A DNA stretch of 64,000 nucleotides from assembly GCF_003363715.1 (NCBI RefSeq), contig NZ_QREV01000026.1, positions 1 to 64,000 of the forward strand, written 5' to 3'. Shown here piece by piece: positions 1,970-29,394 of the stretch; position 1 is the stretch's first letter; every line of letters starts with the position of its first letter. The DNA is from Parabacteroides acidifaciens (GTDB lineage: Bacteria; Bacteroidota; Bacteroidia; Bacteroidales; Tannerellaceae). Position numbers and translations under genes: made by a program. The notes below the pieces were generated by a model. That model had not been told where the DNA came from. It made no database searches and saw only the letters and a list, made by a program, of their open reading frames with translations.

Positions 1970-3226
1970 CTATTCGACAATCACAGCAATCGGGTTACTT
2001 TCGTCAGGTAAATCAGACAAGAGCTGCCGTACTTGATTATCTTTTTTAGAAGGATTATCTTCGATCCATTCTTTCACTTCGGTTACGTCCAATAATCCAG
2101 CCAATTCACCTTTGGCGGTTGCTGTCTGGAGTGATTTAATGAAAAGCCCGTTTGCCGAATCGCTTATCATTCCTTTCGCCATGACCTTAACCTTTCCATT
2201 TCCTTTATCATAAATACCCCAGTACGTTTCGTCTTTGCCCAATCCTTTATAGTTAATCTCATAATAATTGGTTTGGAAAACAAAAAACAGGACTTTTTCA
2301 CCCTCCAGCACATAGTTGAAAGCAATCTTATCCTCGTTCCCTTCCGGATTATACCGCTCTTCATAAGGCCAATGCCTGAAACCTAAGTCAAAAACATATC
2401 GAGGTTCCAACAACTGATCCGATACACAATAAATGGTATCGTTAAAGTTCTCTTTAAAATAGACTTGATCACCGAATGTCCATAAACAAGGTTCCTTTGT
2501 ATAATCAAAGACGACTTTGTCGTTTTTCAAATACAAAATCAGGCAACGAGTAGAAACAGGAATATTTCCATACCCTCCCAAAAAAATTGGTGTCCTGAAG
2601 AGTTCAAAAGGTATCGTATCATCTTGATTCACGATTTCACTTTGTACCTTTTTATTCGGGACATTATATGAAAATATTTTGTCTTCATACTTGTTGAATA
2701 GAGTTTTTGAGTAAAAATACAAATTGCCTCCGTTTCCGATTATAGACAATCCTTGCAACCTTGGCATCCCTTCCGGCAGATTGATATGCTCCAACGGATT
2801 TCCATCCGCATCAAAACGTAAAATCCGTTGACCTTCTGTCTGGATATAGATGATGCCCGACACATCGTCCGTCCAAAAAACTGGAAGACCATCCTGCAAT
2901 AGATATTCATCCGCCCCTTGCCCGATCTTCCCGATGCATCTGATAAATTTACCGGTCTTACGATCGAACATTTTTACCGGTTGCTCACGAGAGCCAACAA
3001 GCAATCTATCTTTCAATATCCTGATATAAGCCCTATCTCCTATCAGAGACTCATCTGTTGTTTCCAACGACACATAATCAATATGATACCCGATGTCCTC
3101 CACCGAAATTTCTTCAAGTTGTTCCAATGCTTGACTCAAGTTAATGGTCATGGTTTTCTCTTCCACTTTTTTACTTGAACAAGCCCACCCGACTACCACC
3201 AATATGACAAATACGATTTTCTTCAT
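1970..3226 (-). CDS. 6-bladed beta-propeller lipoprotein
   Basis: The product is 418 aa. It starts MKKIVFVILVVVGWACSS, a lipoprotein signal with the Cys at residue 16. The mature part carries repeated beta-rich segments (KMFDRKTGKFIRCIGKIG, ILRFDADGNPLEHI) typical of the Bacteroidetes 6-bladed beta-propeller family. These proteins are common beside susCD genes and are presumed surface or periplasmic binding proteins without known catalysis. The gene follows the second susCD pair after about 195 bp that contain a terminator-like hairpin, so it may have its own promoter. A truncated paralogue lies directly downstream. The family call is fairly sure; the ligand is unknown. Confidence 0.75.
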   Translation of the reverse strand: MKKIVFVILVVVGWACSSKKVEEKTMTINLSQALEQLEEISVEDIGYHIDYVSLETTDESLIGDRAYIRILKDRLLVGSREQPVKMFDRKTGKFIRCIGKIGQGADEYLLQDGLPVFWTDDVSGIIYIQTEGQRILRFDADGNPLEHINLPEGMPRLQGLSIIGNGGNLYFYSKTLFNKYEDKIFSYNVPNKKVQSEIVNQDDTIPFELFRTPIFLGGYGNIPVSTRCLILYLKNDKVVFDYTKEPCLWTFGDQVYFKENFNDTIYCVSDQLLEPRYVFDLGFRHWPYEERYNPEGNEDKIAFNYVLEGEKVLFFVFQTNYYEINYKGLGKDETYWGIYDKGNGKVKVMAKGMISDSANGLFIKSLQTATAKGELAGLLDVTEVKEWIEDNPSKKDNQVRQLLSDLPDESNPIAVIVE

Positions 3227-10665: not shown

Positions 10666-13600
10666 TTAAAGAGTAAAGTTAACACTAAGATTATAGGATC
10701 TCATTGTATAATCGCCGCCTTCTACGTCACCGAATGACCAATTTGAAATCACAAACGGATTGCGGGCACTTAAAGAAAGACGCATATTCTGCACCTTAAA
10801 CTTGCTCAGGAAGGTCTTCGGCACATTATAAGACAAAGTGATGTTTTCCATACGGACAAACGTCTTCTTTACATAATGGCTACCTAAATTATAGGAACCG
10901 ATACGTCCGTAGTCGTTTGTAGGATTATCGATTGTCCAACGCGGTAAATCGACAATTGAATATCGGTCATACGTACCACCGGTATTTGCCGCGCGATTGA
11001 ATGTTCCATATTGTCCGACATGGGAGTATACCATAAAAGAAAAACTGAAGTCTTTATAACTGAATTCATTTCTCCATGACCAGTAGAAACGGGGAGTCGT
11101 ATATCCCTGGAACACCTTGTCGTCGTCATTCATCACACCATCATTGTTTTGATCGATATACCGGAAGTCACCTGGTTTACAACCATATTTGGCTGCTTCT
11201 TCTTCTTCACCCAATTGCCATACGCCTTTTCCTTCATAATCCCAGATCTGGTCGGGATCATGGCCGATAAACCATTTGTTTCCAATATCATCTGCTTCCT
11301 TCTGTCCAATGACATTACCATCTTTATCCAAAACATCAACCATGTCACCATACAATTTTTTCAATTTACGACGGTTAAAGGAGAAAGTTCCGGAAGAGGT
11401 CCACATAAAGTCATTCGTACTGATGACATCACCATTCAAAGATAATTCAAACCCTTTATTTGCCAATTTACCCAAATTAGCCTTAACGTCTGCAAAACCT
11501 AAAATAGAAGGCAAAGAACGGTTGACCAACAAATCCTGAGTTTCAGTCATGTAAGTTTCAACAGAACCTCTCAGGCGATCTCCCAACATCGAAAAATCCA
11601 AACCGATATTGTAAGATGCCGTACGTTCCCACTTCAAATCGGCATTAGCCATACGGCTAACATAAATTTGTGATGTGATATATATGTTCCCGTTCTGATC
11701 GATATAGGGATGTAAGCCGGAAGTAAGACTTGCCAATGCATCGTACTGGCCGATATCGCGGTTTCCGTTCTGCCCCCATGAGAAACGCAACTTTCCATAA
11801 TTCAACCAATTACTTGCCGGTTCCAGGAACTTTTCGGATGTAAAAACCCATCCTAAGGCAACAGCAGGGAAAGTGGCACGCGGATTCGCCTGTCCGAAGG
11901 CAGAATAACCGTCACGACGAACAGATGCAGTCAACATATATTTATCTTTAAAAGAATAGAAGACACGTCCCATCAGAGCATCACCCGTTTTGTATTTATC
12001 TTCACTGGAGACAACTGGAACTGTTCCGGCCCCGATATTATGATAGCCAAGGACATCACTCGGTGAAAACTGTGTATTTTTTGCAGTTGTGCTCCAATAC
12101 TGTTCTTTTTCAGCATTAGCCAGGAAAGTAGCTTCGAGTCTATGATCCTTTCCAAAGTCCATTTTCCAACGGACAATATTATCCAGCAACCAACCGAATG
12201 TTTTCTGATTGGTACGCTCCGAGTTACCTCCTTCTCCTGCCCATTCGGGATGTTGGGATGATTTATGGTTATAATATTCATACCATTTATAAGTCGGAGT
12301 AAAGTTCATCTGATACTCGAAACCGAAAGGCAATTTCACTATACCATATATATTAGCATTCAAAGTATGCGTAATTTTTTTACGATCGGTATACAGATTG
12401 TCAAAAAACGGGTTCTTCGAATTATTATCACCATTAGGATACATCCGGTACGGGCTCTCCAAATCATCTATATCATTAGTTGTATATGGTGAATTACGTT
12501 CGCGCTGAACGGCATCTGCGGCTAATGCACTTTCATCTTTGGTAGCAAAAGAAGAAGTCAAACCAATTGTCAGGAAGCTATTTACTTTAGATTCTAAGTT
12601 CAAACGGGTACGGAACGTCTTGTACCAATCACCTGTTTGAATCCCGTCACGATCCGCATAGCCTAAAGACCAGTAATAAGAGAAATCATCCGTACGGTTT
12701 GAAACACTTGCCGTATAATCTTGCTGAAGACCTGTCTGAAAAATATAATCATCCCAATTAGTCTCTATCCCATTCAAGTAATTCTCTACTTCAATATTTT
12801 TAAAGTTCAAACGGGACAACCAGGTTGTAATCATCTGCTCATTGGAGGGTAAAGATGTAGCAGGAGTCGACTGATCGTAGTTATACCATGATAAAGGATC
12901 TATTCCGCTATTACTCAACAACCTCGGATCGGTATACATACCCGGTTTAGCGGCTAACTCTTCCTTTGTCAGCAGGCTTTCAGAATATTCCTGTCGAAAC
13001 TTGATAAAACCGGCACCATCAACAACAGATGGTATGCGGGAAGGCTGCACCAAACCCAGATTGGTATTAAAATTAACCACTGGTTTTGAGGTCTTACCTT
13101 TTTTAGTCGTAATTGCAATTACACCATTTGCTGCTTTTGCTCCATAAACAGCAACGGAGCTGGCATCTTTCAATACATCAACAGATTGGATATCTATTGG
13201 ATTTATATCGGAAAGATCTCCATTAAAAATAACACCATCCAAAACATATAGCGGACTGGATCCGGCTGTCAATGTATTTTTTCCACGAATCTGAACATCC
13301 CCTGTCCCTGCTGCATTCGTAGACATTTTAATTGATAAACCGGCTGCATTTGCACGCAGAAGATCCTGAACAGAACGAGGACTTTCTTTCTCCAAGTTTT
13401 CTGTTCTTACAGAAGAAATCGCCCCGGTCAAATCCTTTTTCTTAGCCGTACCGTAACCGATTACTACCACTTCTTCCAATTCCTCAGAATCTTCTTTCAT
13501 GGTCAAATTAATCACTTTTCGATTGGATACCGGTATTTCCTGAGTCAAATAACCGATATAGGAAAAGACTAAAATGGGGTTTTTTCCTGTTACAGTAACA

Positions 13601-13803
13601 CTGTACTTTCCATCTATATCCGTGATAGAACCATTTGTTGTTCCTTTTTCCATCACGTTCACGCCAATCAACGCTTCGCCAGATTGGTCTTTCACAACTC
13701 CCGTTACTGTTAATCCTTGAGCGCTCGCATAACACGCAAAAACACTCATCAACAATAATACAAAAGTACAACGGGACACAAGACTAAACACATGTTTTCT
13801 CAT
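10666..13803 (-). CDS. SusC/RagA-family TonB-linked outer-membrane transporter (pair 1)
   Basis: The product is 1045 aa with a signal peptide ending at CYASAQ. The order is CarboxypepD_reg-like domain (TVTGVVKDQSGEALIGVNVM), linker EEVVVIGYGTAKKKDLTGAI, plug (about residues 130-245) and a beta-barrel ending YNLSVNFTL. It acts in the outer membrane as the TonB-dependent channel of a SusCD pair. It is the first gene of the leftward cluster; its 5' side opens onto a 946-bp region with an apparently invertible promoter (13972-14184), so its expression may be phase-variable. No sensor or sigma/anti-sigma gene lies next to it. Confidence 0.95.
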   Translation of the reverse strand: MRKHVFSLVSRCTFVLLLMSVFACYASAQGLTVTGVVKDQSGEALIGVNVMEKGTTNGSITDIDGKYSVTVTGKNPILVFSYIGYLTQEIPVSNRKVINLTMKEDSEELEEVVVIGYGTAKKKDLTGAISSVRTENLEKESPRSVQDLLRANAAGLSIKMSTNAAGTGDVQIRGKNTLTAGSSPLYVLDGVIFNGDLSDINPIDIQSVDVLKDASSVAVYGAKAANGVIAITTKKGKTSKPVVNFNTNLGLVQPSRIPSVVDGAGFIKFRQEYSESLLTKEELAAKPGMYTDPRLLSNSGIDPLSWYNYDQSTPATSLPSNEQMITTWLSRLNFKNIEVENYLNGIETNWDDYIFQTGLQQDYTASVSNRTDDFSYYWSLGYADRDGIQTGDWYKTFRTRLNLESKVNSFLTIGLTSSFATKDESALAADAVQRERNSPYTTNDIDDLESPYRMYPNGDNNSKNPFFDNLYTDRKKITHTLNANIYGIVKLPFGFEYQMNFTPTYKWYEYYNHKSSQHPEWAGEGGNSERTNQKTFGWLLDNIVRWKMDFGKDHRLEATFLANAEKEQYWSTTAKNTQFSPSDVLGYHNIGAGTVPVVSSEDKYKTGDALMGRVFYSFKDKYMLTASVRRDGYSAFGQANPRATFPAVALGWVFTSEKFLEPASNWLNYGKLRFSWGQNGNRDIGQYDALASLTSGLHPYIDQNGNIYITSQIYVSRMANADLKWERTASYNIGLDFSMLGDRLRGSVETYMTETQDLLVNRSLPSILGFADVKANLGKLANKGFELSLNGDVISTNDFMWTSSGTFSFNRRKLKKLYGDMVDVLDKDGNVIGQKEADDIGNKWFIGHDPDQIWDYEGKGVWQLGEEEEAAKYGCKPGDFRYIDQNNDGVMNDDDKVFQGYTTPRFYWSWRNEFSYKDFSFSFMVYSHVGQYGTFNRAANTGGTYDRYSIVDLPRWTIDNPTNDYGRIGSYNLGSHYVKKTFVRMENITLSYNVPKTFLSKFKVQNMRLSLSARNPFVISNWSFGDVEGGDYTMRSYNLSVNFTL

Positions 13804-13970
13804 ATTCTCATTTAAATTGGTATTAAATAATTAGTTAGTAAAACTCTTTCTTGCATTAAACCATCACATTGTGTACGTTCACACAAGCCATCAAACACGC
13901 ACAATAGATTATCCACTATTCATAATAATAAATATTAAGATTCAACACTTTATACATTTTCTTCATCTAT

Positions 13971-14010
13971 AAAATGACTAAAAAAAACGTACGTTTTTTT
14001 TAGTCATTTT
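13971..14010. repeat. 40-bp perfect palindrome with ACGTACGT centre
   Basis: Each 20-base arm (left arm AAAATGACTAAAAAAAACGT) is the exact reverse complement of the other, with no loop. It includes the left repeat of the putative invertible promoter and, in its right arm (13989-14009), a direct copy of the right repeat. It could be a recombinase crossover site, a strong operator, or both. Confidence 0.85.
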
Positions 14011-14184
14011 TCAAAAGCTATTTTTACTAAATATCTCTGTATATATCTACTTCCAATATACACATTAAACAATTGTGCTATAGATATTTATCACAAATCA
14101 TCAAAAAAAGCAAAGAAAGTTTTCATTATTCAATATAAGTTAATATCTTTGGCGAAAATAAATGTACGTTTTTTTTAGTCATTT
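13972..14184. promoter_or_regulatory. Putative invertible promoter (inverton) upstream of susC, currently OFF-oriented
   Basis: A 21-bp sequence (AAATGACTAAAAAAAACGTA plus C) at 13972-13992 recurs as an exact inverted repeat at 14164-14184, enclosing 171 bp. The enclosed segment has a perfect -7 element TATCTTTG (14144-14151) on the plus strand, reading away from susC; no perfect minus-strand element is visible inside. Inversion would place it at about 14005-14012 facing susC, roughly 195 bp from its ATG. The repeat core AAACGTACGT fits the ARACGTWCGT core recalled for Bacteroides fragilis invertible promoters. The invertase is not in this window. Confidence 0.6.
14144..14151 (+). promoter_or_regulatory. 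-7 element inside the putative invertible segment
   Basis: TATCTTTG, a perfect TAnnTTTG match on the plus strand; the -33 region 19 bp upstream is TTTC rather than TTTG. Transcription would begin near 14158 and run directly into the right inverted repeat and then toward dnaK 590 bp away. In the inverted state it would serve susC. Confidence 0.5.
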
Positions 14185-14749
14185 ACAATCAGTATAAAAT
14201 TCTTATATTCAACACATTACACACTTCAAATCAAAAATATACTTTAAAATCACATTTACACGATCTTAAAACACAAATAGCTATACATCAATATTTTATT
14301 ATCAAAAACTGATTCTCATAATGATTTACCAAATCCACACATTAACCGGTTTTAAGCTCATTTCATCTATGGACTACATGGAAAGAAGTATTTCAGGAAG
14401 AGGTATATAAATGCAAATCTGCTACTAAGCATAGATTTAATGTAACTTTGTTTCGTACACATCACTTTTAGAGTACAGAATAGAACCAATATCAATAGAG
14501 ATTGCTTTACTAATTTTAAAGGCTGTCAGAATGCCTTTGCCTCTCCCCACTAACATACATATAATAATAAAAACCACATTTTAGTTAGAAGCCAATCCGA
14601 AAACTGACGTATTGTCACACTTTCTGTCAGCTAAACTTTTCCAAAGGCATCCTTGTTACTTTGGCATACGATTTGTAAGATAATTAGTGCAGCTCGAAAG
14701 AGAAAAGCAAATACAAGGAAAATAATAACAATTAAAATAGAAGAAAATT

Positions 14750-16666
14750 ATGGGAAAAATTATCGGAATCGACTTAGGAACAACCAACTCGTGTGTTGCC
14801 GTACTCGAAGGTAACGAACCGGTTGTCATTGCAAACAGCGAAGGTAAAAGAACGACTCCTTCAATCGTTGCATTTGTAGAAGGTGGCGAACGCAAGGTAG
14901 GTGATCCGGCAAAACGTCAGGCAATCACCAACCCTGAAAAAACAATATTCTCTATCAAACGATTCATGGGTGAAACCTACGATCAGGTACAGAAAGAGAT
15001 CAACCGCGTACCTTACAAAGTAGTACGTGGCGACAACAATACTCCGCGTGTCGACATCGAAGGACGCCTATACACACCGCAGGAAATCTCAGCTATGATC
15101 CTGCAGAAAATGAAGAAAACAGCAGAAGACTATCTGGGACAGGAAGTGACAGAAGCCGTTATCACTGTTCCGGCATACTTTAGCGATGCACAGCGTCAGG
15201 CAACAAAGGAAGCAGGTGAAATTGCAGGTTTGAATGTTCGTCGTATCGTAAACGAACCGACAGCTGCATCTTTAGCTTATGGTCTGGATAAGACGAACAA
15301 AGACATGAAAATCGCCGTATTCGACCTTGGTGGCGGTACATTCGATATCTCTATCCTGGAACTGGGCGACGGTGTGTTTGAAGTTAAATCGACTAACGGT
15401 GATACTCACCTGGGTGGTGATGACTTCGACCATGTAATCATCGACTGGTTGGCTGAAGAATTCCTGCGCGAAGAAGGTGTCGACCTGCGCAAGGACCCGA
15501 TGGCTTTGCAACGTTTAAAAGAAGCTGCTGAAAAGGCTAAGATCGAATTGTCAAGCACAACAAGCACGGAAATCAACCTTCCGTATATCATGCCGGTTAA
15601 CGGTATTCCAAAGCACTTGGTTAAGACACTGACTCGTGCCAAATTCGAACAATTGGCAGACAGCCTGATCCAGGCTTGTATCGAACCGTGCCGCCAGTCT
15701 TTGAAAGATGCAGGTTTGAGTACTTCCGACATCGACGAAGTAATCTTGGTAGGTGGTTCAACACGTATCCCGGCCGTACAAGCTATTGTTGAGAAGTTCT
15801 TCGGCAAAGCTCCGTCCAAAGGTGTTAATCCGGACGAAGTGGTAGCTGTAGGTGCTGCTATACAGGGCGGCGTGTTGACAGGTGAAGTAAAAGACGTTCT
15901 GTTGTTGGATGTGACTCCATTGTCATTGGGTATCGAAACAATGGGTGGCGTTATGACCAAGTTGATCGAAGCCAATACGACTATTCCGACTAAGAAGTCT
16001 GAAACATTTACGACAGCCGTAGACAATCAACCTTCTGTGGAAATCCATGTATTGCAGGGTGAACGTTCATTGGCTAAAGACAACAAATCGATCGGACGTT
16101 TCCACCTCGATGGAATACCTGCCGCACAGCGTGGCGTGCCTCAGATTGAAGTTACTTTCGATATCGACGCAAACGGTATCCTCAACGTCTCTGCGAAAGA
16201 TAAAGGTACCGGTAAAGTCCAGAGCATCCGTATCGAAGCATCCAGCGGATTGAGCGACGACGAAGTAAAACGTATGAAAGAAGAAGCTCAGGCTAACGCT
16301 GAAGCCGATAAGAAAGAAAAAGAACGTATCGACAAGCTGAACCAGGCCGACAGTATGATCTTCCAAACTGAAAAACAGTTGAAAGACCTGGGCGACAAGC
16401 TCCCGGCTGACAAAAAAGCTCCGATCGAAACTGCTTTAAATAAATTGAAAGAAGCTCACAAGGCTCAGGATATCGCCGGTATCGATGCTGCTACTGCAGA
16501 ACTGAACAGCGTATTCCAGGCCGCAAGCCAGGAAATGTACAACGCACAGAATGCACAGGGTGGTGCACAACCGGGTCCTGATTTCGGTCAGCAGGCTGGT
16601 GGCAACGCTGGAAATGGCAAACAGGATGGTGGAGTAACTGATGTAGACTTCGAAGAAGTGAAATAA
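14750..16666 (+). CDS. dnaK: Molecular chaperone DnaK (Hsp70)
   Basis: The product is 638 aa, normal for the family. The N-terminal ATPase domain starts [19 protein letters not shown], with phosphate loop 2 at [11 protein letters not shown] (about residue 190) and the adenosine motif [13 protein letters not shown] (about 335). The substrate-binding domain begins near residue 385 ([17 protein letters not shown]). The C-terminal tail is glycine/glutamine-rich and ends DVDFEEVK, close to the EEVD-like end of bacterial DnaK. It binds unfolded peptides in the cytosol in ATP-driven cycles with DnaJ and GrpE, neither of which is adjacent. A strong terminator follows, so it appears to be a single-gene unit with a long leader. 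Confidence 0.98.
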
Positions 16667-28167: not shown

Positions 28168-29394
28168 TTAGGTCGTTTTAGTAGAGAAGCTCTCCCGTAC
28201 ATTCTGCATATCTCGGAGAATACTTTGATCTAATACTTTTGCGTATCGTTGTGTCATTTTCGTATTGGTATGACCGAGCATTTTAGATACATTCTCCAAT
28301 GATACATTATTAGCCAGAGTAACGACTGTCGAAAATGTATGACGCCCAGTATGCGTGGTCAGGTTCTTCTTAATTCCGCAGAAATCAGCTATTTCCTTCA
28401 AATAACTGTTTGCCTTTTGGTTGCATGGAACAGGTAATAATGTACCTTTCTTTTCGCAAAGCGGATAGCCTTTGTATTTATCCAATATAGCTAATGGAAT
28501 ATCCAAGAGTGGAATGTTACACATGATTTTTGTTTTTTGGCGAGCTTTTCTTATCCAGATGTTACCTTCATTATCTGTTACCAAATGTTCGGGTTTCAAT
28601 TCCGATACATCTATGAACGCTAAGCCAGTCCAGCACTGGAATAAGAAAATATCACGTACCAATTCCAAGCGTGGTACATTGAAAACTTTAGTCCGCAAAA
28701 TTTCTAATTCTTCTTTAGTTAGAAACTCTTTATGTACTTCCTGTTCATGAAAGTGTATATTCATAAACGGATTCTTATCTATCCAGTCGTTTGCAAGAGC
28801 CATGTTAGTAATCTTCTTGACTACTTTCATGTAGCGGATAACTGTATTTTCTTGCAGATTCTTTTTTGATTTCAAGAAATGAATATAGTCCTGAATAATG
28901 GCATTATTTATTTCTTTCATCGGAATATCCTTTAGATGGTACTGTTTTAGAAGCATTTCTTTAAAATACTTCAAGCATGTATCAAAGCGGGAGATAGTGA
29001 CCTTTGCATAATCCTTACCTATCAGTTCTCTGCATTTGTCGTTATGTTCTTGGAATACCTCAAAGAACATCTTATGTTTTTCATCCAGTCCGAGAAAACG
29101 TCTTTTAATCTCCATCGGATTAATTAGTTTGTTTTCATCTTCCAAAGTCCGATGAATCTCATACAAGCGTAATTTTACCGATTCCAGATAGCGGTTTACT
29201 TCTACAGATTTAGAATCTTTGCCTGTACACCGTTCTTTGGCTTGTGACCAGAGTTCAGGCTTAACGGTTCGTTTTAGCTGCATTTCAGCTAATTGACCTT
29301 GAATAGTTATCCGCAACATGATAGGGGTTTCACCTGATTTTACTGTTCTTGTTTTGCGGATGAAGAACAGCACATTGAAAGTCTGTCGTTTCAT
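28168..29394 (-). CDS. Tyrosine recombinase / integrase of the mobile element
   Basis: The product is 408 aa, the usual size for Bacteroidetes element integrases. An arm-binding-like N-terminus and SAM-like core-binding domain (about residues 110-210) precede the catalytic domain. Visible catalytic parts are HTGRH (about 349) and the LGHTNTKMTQRYAKV box with the Tyr nucleophile (about 382). At the first Arg position the sequence is WTGLAFIDV, so Arg I of the canonical TGLR motif is Ala, like the known change of that residue in IntDOT-type enzymes. Position next to the tRNA-Phe junction fits an enzyme that recombines at the tRNA 3' end. Confidence 0.92.
   Translation of the reverse strand: MKRQTFNVLFFIRKTRTVKSGETPIMLRITIQGQLAEMQLKRTVKPELWSQAKERCTGKDSKSVEVNRYLESVKLRLYEIHRTLEDENKLINPMEIKRRFLGLDEKHKMFFEVFQEHNDKCRELIGKDYAKVTISRFDTCLKYFKEMLLKQYHLKDIPMKEINNAIIQDYIHFLKSKKNLQENTVIRYMKVVKKITNMALANDWIDKNPFMNIHFHEQEVHKEFLTKEELEILRTKVFNVPRLELVRDIFLFQCWTGLAFIDVSELKPEHLVTDNEGNIWIRKARQKTKIMCNIPLLDIPLAILDKYKGYPLCEKKGTLLPVPCNQKANSYLKEIADFCGIKKNLTTHTGRHTFSTVVTLANNVSLENVSKMLGHTNTKMTQRYAKVLDQSILRDMQNVRESFSTKTT

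Follow-up and report, generated by a model that had tools for sequence, protein, structure and literature searches.

What lies between dnaK and the tandem susCD genes of Parabacteroides acidifaciens: an invertible promoter that switches the susCD locus on and off, or a static arrangement of repeats? We addressed this question in a 64,000-nt stretch of contig NZ_QREV01000026.1 (GCF_003363715.1), hereafter the window, in whose coordinates positions are given unless another locus is named. A preliminary description of the window had proposed a phase-variable promoter controlling the tandem susCD locus and captured in the OFF state.

Repeats, putative recombination sites and promoter between dnaK and susC

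The exact 21-bp inverted repeat on which the preliminary description was built is present at 13972-13992 and 14164-14184. The 64-kb window has 3 exact inverted repeats of at least 14 bp spaced 50-600 bp apart, of which this one is the longest. Dinucleotide shuffling of the 946-bp intergenic region, repeated 1000 times, gave no inverted repeat above 15 bp with 100-400 bp spacing against the real 21 bp, and chance is thus no explanation for the repeat. It had been missed that the left repeat forms one half of a 40-bp palindrome without mismatches (13971-14010), where the longest palindrome in 1000 shuffles of the intergenic region was 22 bp, and that both repeats are the outer halves of 32-bp dyad sites of the form TGAC-N11-TA-N11-GTCA, perfect on the left and imperfect on the right (Table 1). 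The outer halves of both sites and the entire left site fit the pattern perfectly. The inner half of the right site, which overlaps the end of the promoter -7 element, is off the consensus (TGGCG, AATG), and this could weaken the right site.

The core ARACGTWCGT, also claimed for the repeat, was found as AAACGTACGT at 13985-13994 and on the other strand at 13987-13996, the matches on two strands being one overlapping place. The window contains 2 such matches against 0.34 expected, and at least 2 were obtained in 3 of 100 shuffles. In the form of the motif given in the accessible part of PMC8375218, ARACGTTCGTN, AAACGTACGT has a one-base mismatch because the core here is TA. With such a palindromic core, recombination without a directing factor could give deletion as well as inversion.

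Table 1. Features of the susCD-dnaK region in window coordinates
Feature	Position	Strand	Remark
6-bladed beta-propeller protein (DUF5128/DUF4934)	1970..3226	-	behind second susCD; operon membership assumed
Second SusD-family protein, 629 aa	3421..5310	-	
Second SusC-family protein, 1067 aa	5330..8533	-	
SusD-family lipoprotein, 643 aa	8754..10685	-	
SusC/RagA family TonB-linked outer membrane protein, 1045 aa	10666..13803	-	presumed switch target
Left (susC-proximal) recombination site, putative	13975..14006	.	TGACTAAAAAAAACG-TA-CGTTTTTTTTAGTCA, inside the palindrome
Presumed crossover, left site	13990-13991		central TA
Presumed invertible segment	13991..14165	.	175 bp between crossovers; inversion inferred for this locus
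Promoter -7 element TATCTTTG	14144..14151	+	toward dnaK, away from susC (OFF)
Right (dnaK-proximal) recombination site, putative	14150..14181	.	TGGCGAAAATAAATG-TA-CGTTTTTTTTAGTCA
Central TA of right site	14165-14166		
dnaK	14750..16666	+	downstream of promoter as now oriented

A single -7 element facing away from susC had been described, and TATCTTTG indeed stands alone: neither strand has a second TAnnTTTG between the repeats. This -7 element is perfect; no clear TTG is visible by eye at -33, and most other elements of the site family have a TTG 18-24 nt before the -7. The gene in the present direction of the promoter, which had gone unnoticed, is dnaK, probably a neighbour of the switch and not its target. 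When the segment was flipped in silico at the TA cores, the -7 element moved to 14005-14012 on the minus strand and the right-hand site became the perfect one. The earlier proposal that inversion would place the promoter upstream of susC stood, with its distance of about 195 bp corrected to 201 nt from the -7 to the susC ATG. A terminator-like site or stem was looked for in 13600-14800 and was not found.

The second susCD pair that had been suspected behind the first is present on the minus strand. Near the contig start, a 233-aa ORF with a TonB plug domain (932-1633) is apparently just the front part of a third SusC-like protein. An operator-like sequence, TTGTGT-N6-ACACAA, was noticed by eye between the switch and susC (13870-13890), and TGTG..CACA-like sequences were likewise seen upstream of several homologues.

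The site family, its inversions and candidate invertases

We searched the 5.10-Mb genome for a degenerate pattern of the dyad site at up to 3 mismatches and obtained 28 copies, compared with 0 for the reversed control pattern. The family occurs in 20 of 38 Parabacteroides genomes, this one included (up to 2 mismatches). Seven of the 28 sites lie within 100 bp of a contig end, where about 0.16 would be expected by chance (144 contigs), an excess that fits assembly breaks at repeated or mixed-orientation sequence. Site pairs elsewhere are about 150-186 bp apart and surround promoters. Pfam placed DUF6383 at the C-terminal end of 11 (977-1421 aa) of 18 site-neighbouring proteins, and a DUF6383 gene lies behind 9 of the 13 paired elements in this genome. 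The other seven neighbours comprise glycosyltransferase-4, ApbE, GSCFA and DUF6261 proteins (one each), a purine-synthesis enzyme beside a contig-end site, a protein with a sub-threshold Big_13 match and a protein without a match.

The DUF6383 surface proteins behind sites in this genome (G000, loci L010-L027) share a common C-terminus, ...VKAIVK. All 9 paired DUF6383 elements were captured OFF or mixed, and to judge from the assembly it looks as if few of these proteins were expressed at a time; ON candidates before DUF6383 genes were noted in relatives by their C-terminal ends, L179 in G013 and L188 in G021. In relatives, sites also precede the genes of a sensor histidine kinase with a PAS domain (L166) and of an epimerase of polysaccharide biosynthesis (L167 by Pfam, L176 and L184 by similarity of ends). 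The promoter-proximal inner half contains TGGCG in the relatives' elements L178, L179, L181, L188 and L189, the last of which also has AATG.

Read in the inverted sense, the two sites share the central dinucleotide in 33 of 34 pairs drawn from 5 genomes, where partners were picked blind to the core, half-sites had to match at 12 or more of 15 positions, and one site per pair had to fit a pattern preferring A or T at the core. With permuted pairs, concordance averaged 15.4 pairs and did not exceed 27 in 20000 rounds. The cores of concordant pairs are of the types TA, AT and TT/AA, and the single discordant pair, L183 (G013), is without a convincing partner. Concordance could partly stem from common descent of the two arms, and the comparative evidence for inversion is therefore the stronger. 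Between L179 of G013 and L170 of G014, the flanks are collinear (98% over 148 bp and 81% over 127 bp), whereas a 207-bp segment matches on the opposite strand at 86%. Similarly, L176 of G013 is inverted relative to both L167 of G014 and L184 of G021, which agree with each other. Altogether, the segment is inverted in 4 of the 22 listed pairs with collinear flanks; one of these 4 (L172-L179) is a weaker match and probably paralogous. Two orthologous loci thus stand in opposite orientation in related species, so this site family inverts in nature.

The promoter orientation was tallied for 42 elements with target genes assigned by hand: 36 point away from the gene, 3 toward it (L176, L179 and L188), 2 are mixed and 1 has no motif, which indicates that the OFF orientation predominates and ON forms are rare in these assemblies. 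In this tally, the partners of L170, L174, L177 and L185 were placed by hand and the two sites of L187 were paired by hand; it leaves aside the contig-end single sites of G000 (L010, L011, L013, L018, the first L021 site, L023 and L026), L024 (no site at threshold), the second pair in L021, L183 (no real partner) and the sites G021:C3:927582 and G002:C94:200.

A search of the genome for a master invertase, which the preliminary description had recommended, led to an Mpi-family serine recombinase. Four of the 5 resolvase-family proteins in the genome were scanned with NCBIfam: the L047 protein on contig C35 scored 321.9 bits against 'master DNA invertase Mpi family' (curated cut-off 272), while L050 (187 bits), L051 (185 bits) and L048 (93 bits) fell below the cut-off. 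L050 and L051 are Mpi-like paralogues on contigs C5 and C134. The best match of the invertase was 96% to P. massiliensis in a listing that possibly leaves its own genome outside. At E 1e-20, 34 of the 38 Parabacteroides genomes contain a match to L047, and the identity of each genome's top match ranges from 30% to 100%. The presence of at least 2 sites was associated with L047 (at least 60% identity), L050 and L051 at Fisher p 0.005 each, relatedness being uncontrolled; as the three Mpi-like paralogues correlate equally with the sites, co-occurrence was rejected as a means to name the invertase. At the thresholds used, L047-type matches without L050- or L051-type matches were found in G002, G003 (a partial match), G023, G032 and G034, which carry 4-9 sites and of which four assemblies are just 83-90% complete. 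G004, with 15 sites, has good matches to L050 and L051 only. The genome also contains 19 phage-integrase family matches. Dyad sites whose two-base cores are concordant fit serine invertases, and on family grounds L047 is the first candidate for the invertase. A tyrosine recombinase of the phage-integrase family is encoded within the window at 28168-29394, about 12 kb beyond dnaK, and is probably part of a mobile element.

The dnaK-susC junction in related genomes

Comparison of the orientation in related genomes, which had also been recommended, was possible in one relative, G014, and there the orientation is opposite. G014 keeps the dnaK-susC order, with a dnaK match at G014:C1:415959-416310 (L200) and susC from 416878 (73% identity). 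A search of this region at up to 3 mismatches gave no family site, and the exact inverted repeats of at least 11 bp found between the two genes are limited to one 11-mer. Here lies TAACTTTGGCG, directed toward susC, within a 64-column alignment to 14103-14164 of the window. The alignment score is 48 in the susC-pointing orientation compared with 22, the chance level, in the dnaK-pointing one, and 48 was reached by 0 of 5000 dinucleotide shuffles (maximum 42) and 0 of 2000 base shuffles (maximum 46). The aligned stretch stops at the TA core, and the rest of the segment is unaligned. Among 13 upstream regions searched for promoter homology, a match was obtained in the dnaK-adjacent copy of G014 and none in the other 12. 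The homologous promoter of G014 points at susC, opposite to that of the window, which indicates that the window holds the OFF form, as had been claimed. The window promoter is thus a homologue of the fixed G014 promoter, turned round. We dropped the idea that TGGCG...AATG in the right site is a sign of its origin from the native promoter (G014 has TTTGGCG): in the same half-site, relatives' elements with other promoters often have TGGCG and one has AATG, and the letters are therefore no evidence for the origin of the site.

No site pair was found upstream of 12 susC homologues in relatives at up to 4 mismatches (L053 offers just 97 bp upstream), apart from which L060 has one lone 4-mismatch match, and no family site was found in 29 dnaK upstream regions of relatives at up to 3 mismatches. 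G002 also has the dnaK-susC arrangement, with a different exact 21-bp inverted repeat, AGTTCTATCTGAACTATGGTA, whose copies are about 160 bp apart (L055 1148-1168 and 1310-1330); in a plain alignment with the window, its intergenic region is conserved on the dnaK side only. The motif AGTYYYN4GDACT, which we take to be the consensus of the tyrosine recombinase Tsr0667, is located within 1.5 kb upstream of 5 of 12 susC homologues (L053, L054, L055, L056 and L058), against a background of 2 matches in 430,784 bp of other loci. L056 and L058 adjoin a phosphoglucomutase gene, not dnaK. There was no match to this motif within 1.5 kb upstream of susC in the P. acidifaciens genome. These motifs upstream of the relatives' susC genes, in G002 as the exact inverted repeat, suggest a possible tyrosine-recombinase switch; alternatively, the two copies of AGTTCTATCTGAACTATGGTA may well be operators for a transcription factor.

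In G013, dnaK and susC point toward one another across about 50 kb, while they are adjacent in G002, G014 and the window. At the edges of these 50 kb lies a 20-bp inverted sequence with AGTTCCTTAAGAACT (L229 574-593 and L230 9893-9912), which contains the AGTYYYN4GDACT motif, and a large insertion or rearrangement at this inverted sequence is possible.

One dnaK-susC junction thus appears fixed in one species (G014), bracketed by a possibly Tsr0667-like repeat in a second (G002) and by Mpi-type sites in a third (window). With somewhat less than even confidence, we propose this series of three arrangements for the same nutrient-uptake genes, in which a switch was built around an existing promoter and joined to a master invertase regulon, the recombinase system differing by species.

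A probable switch of the susCD locus and its known counterparts

The site family around promoters, its inversions in relatives, the Mpi-family invertase and the promoter orientation in G014 support the preliminary reading, and we consider it very probable that the locus is an Mpi-type invertible promoter controlling the tandem susCD genes, captured OFF. According to this model, the two 32-bp dyad sites would be bound by a Hin-like serine invertase, for which the Mpi-family protein on C35 is the likeliest candidate, and strand exchange at the central TA dinucleotides would flip the 175-bp segment. In the sequenced orientation the promoter would fire toward dnaK, leaving susCD without a promoter from the segment. 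After the flip, transcription would start inside the left site and proceed for about 200 nt into susC (ON), and the transcript would then run on through the tandem susD-susC-susD genes, such that cells of one clone may differ in carrying this nutrient-uptake pair. We infer flipping at this locus, the identity of the invertase and the extent of the operon from the comparisons above.

Palindromes are often protein-binding sites, and as the left site is a perfect palindrome, the repeats might be read as paired operators, or as a hairpin or terminator, instead of recombination sites. This is scarcely conceivable given that copies elsewhere are paired around promoters, have concordant cores and show natural inversions between relatives, and that no terminator-like site was found in 13600-14800. 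Another reading accepts the sites as those of a former switch now locked OFF, the right site having decayed and the segment being static. The off-consensus inner half of the right site and the promoter facing away from susC are what one would see in such a remnant, but the outer halves and the left site are perfect. Moreover, TGGCG is common in the inner halves of relatives and L189 has AATG as well, which makes the right inner half a variant with no clear sign of decay, and L179 is inverted relative to L170 even with both its sites off the pattern. We therefore regard the locked state as quite improbable.

The same sequence could also serve as a two-way switch, the present orientation raising dnaK and the other expressing susCD. 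The promoter does point at dnaK, about 600 bp off, with no terminator-like stem in the region searched. However, a loose motif search found a susC-like start beside dnaK in only 2 of 29 relatives, none with sites, and the window aligns to the 150-200 bp ahead of dnaK in 10 relatives, mostly without an adjacent susC, suggesting that this upstream DNA belongs to dnaK itself. For B. fragilis, a switch next to groES/EL is without effect on groES/EL transcription, according to the accessible text of PMC4747536. A role in dnaK expression is thus unlikely. Inversion might finally be real and yet be carried out by an Mpi-like paralogue (C5 or C134) or a tyrosine recombinase; the co-occurrence of L050 and L051 with sites is as good as that of L047, G004 combines its 15 sites with good matches to L050 and L051 only, and the genome has 19 matches to phage integrases. 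Against this stand G002, G003, G023, G032 and G034, where sites and L047-type matches occur without those of the L050 or L051 type, and the two-base concordant core in a dyad site, which suits a serine invertase. We consider another recombinase rather unlikely and retain L047 as the first candidate for the invertase of the Mpi-type switch.

Phase-variable SusC/SusD proteins and capsules shape how gut Bacteroidales feed, how sensitive they are to phages and how they meet the immune system. Members of the Mpi-type site family stand at genes for large surface proteins, a glycosyltransferase and a susCD pair, and in relatives also at those for polysaccharide synthesis (one gene) and a sensor kinase. 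As one site family extends across such varied surface genes, one invertase could diversify several surface functions. The kind of switch is already known; what appears newer is that one locus is apparently fixed, possibly Tsr-type, or Mpi-type depending on the species. The dnaK-susC series makes the birth and replacement of a phase switch directly studiable at one promoter, and this cross-species comparison lifts the case somewhat above routine. We found no description of this dnaK-susC switch in the mostly open literature, as far as the accessible parts of PMC4747536, PMC8375218, PMC12118408, PMC10773633, PMC2943079, PMC8748976, PMC9409006, PMC11892184 and PMC10939037 extend.

The Mpi regulon of B. 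fragilis resembles the window in its short promoter segments between inverted repeats with the core ARACGTWCGT, and the P. acidifaciens genome in the combination of an Mpi-family invertase with many distant sites; in the window, inverted repeats of about 20 bp (21 bp exact) bracket such a short promoter segment. Coyne 2003 is reportedly the primary paper on this regulon. Unlike those of B. fragilis, the sites here have TGAC/GTCA arms and TA, AT or TT/AA cores, and the targets are susCD beside dnaK and mostly DUF6383 genes (9 of 13 pairs), not capsule loci. In B. fragilis, one serine invertase acts on 13 regions, as stated in the available text of PMC4747536.

The Tsr0667 switches of B. fragilis share SusC/SusD as targets with the window but depend on a tyrosine recombinase; the same text reports SusC/SusD phase variation by DNA inversion for them (PMC4747536). 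In B. intestinalis, PVR7-12 are 183-186-bp capsule promoters between repeats overlapping the Mpi motif, and transcription starts inside the proximal inverted repeat (PMC8375218, in the part accessible). These repeats have the sequence GTTCGTTTAA and serve capsule operons, whereas the element in the window would serve susCD.

The glycoprotein switch of P. distasonis belongs to the same genus and likewise concerns large phase-variable surface proteins, whereas the target in the window is SusC/SusD. Fletcher 2007, cited in PMC2943079 and PMC10773633, reportedly deals with this family of phase-variable glycoproteins, presumed to form the S-layer. Its members presumably use invertible promoters, and we take the DUF6383 proteins found here to be that family. 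The window target lies outside this family, while other sites of the same recombination-site family adjoin DUF6383 proteins.
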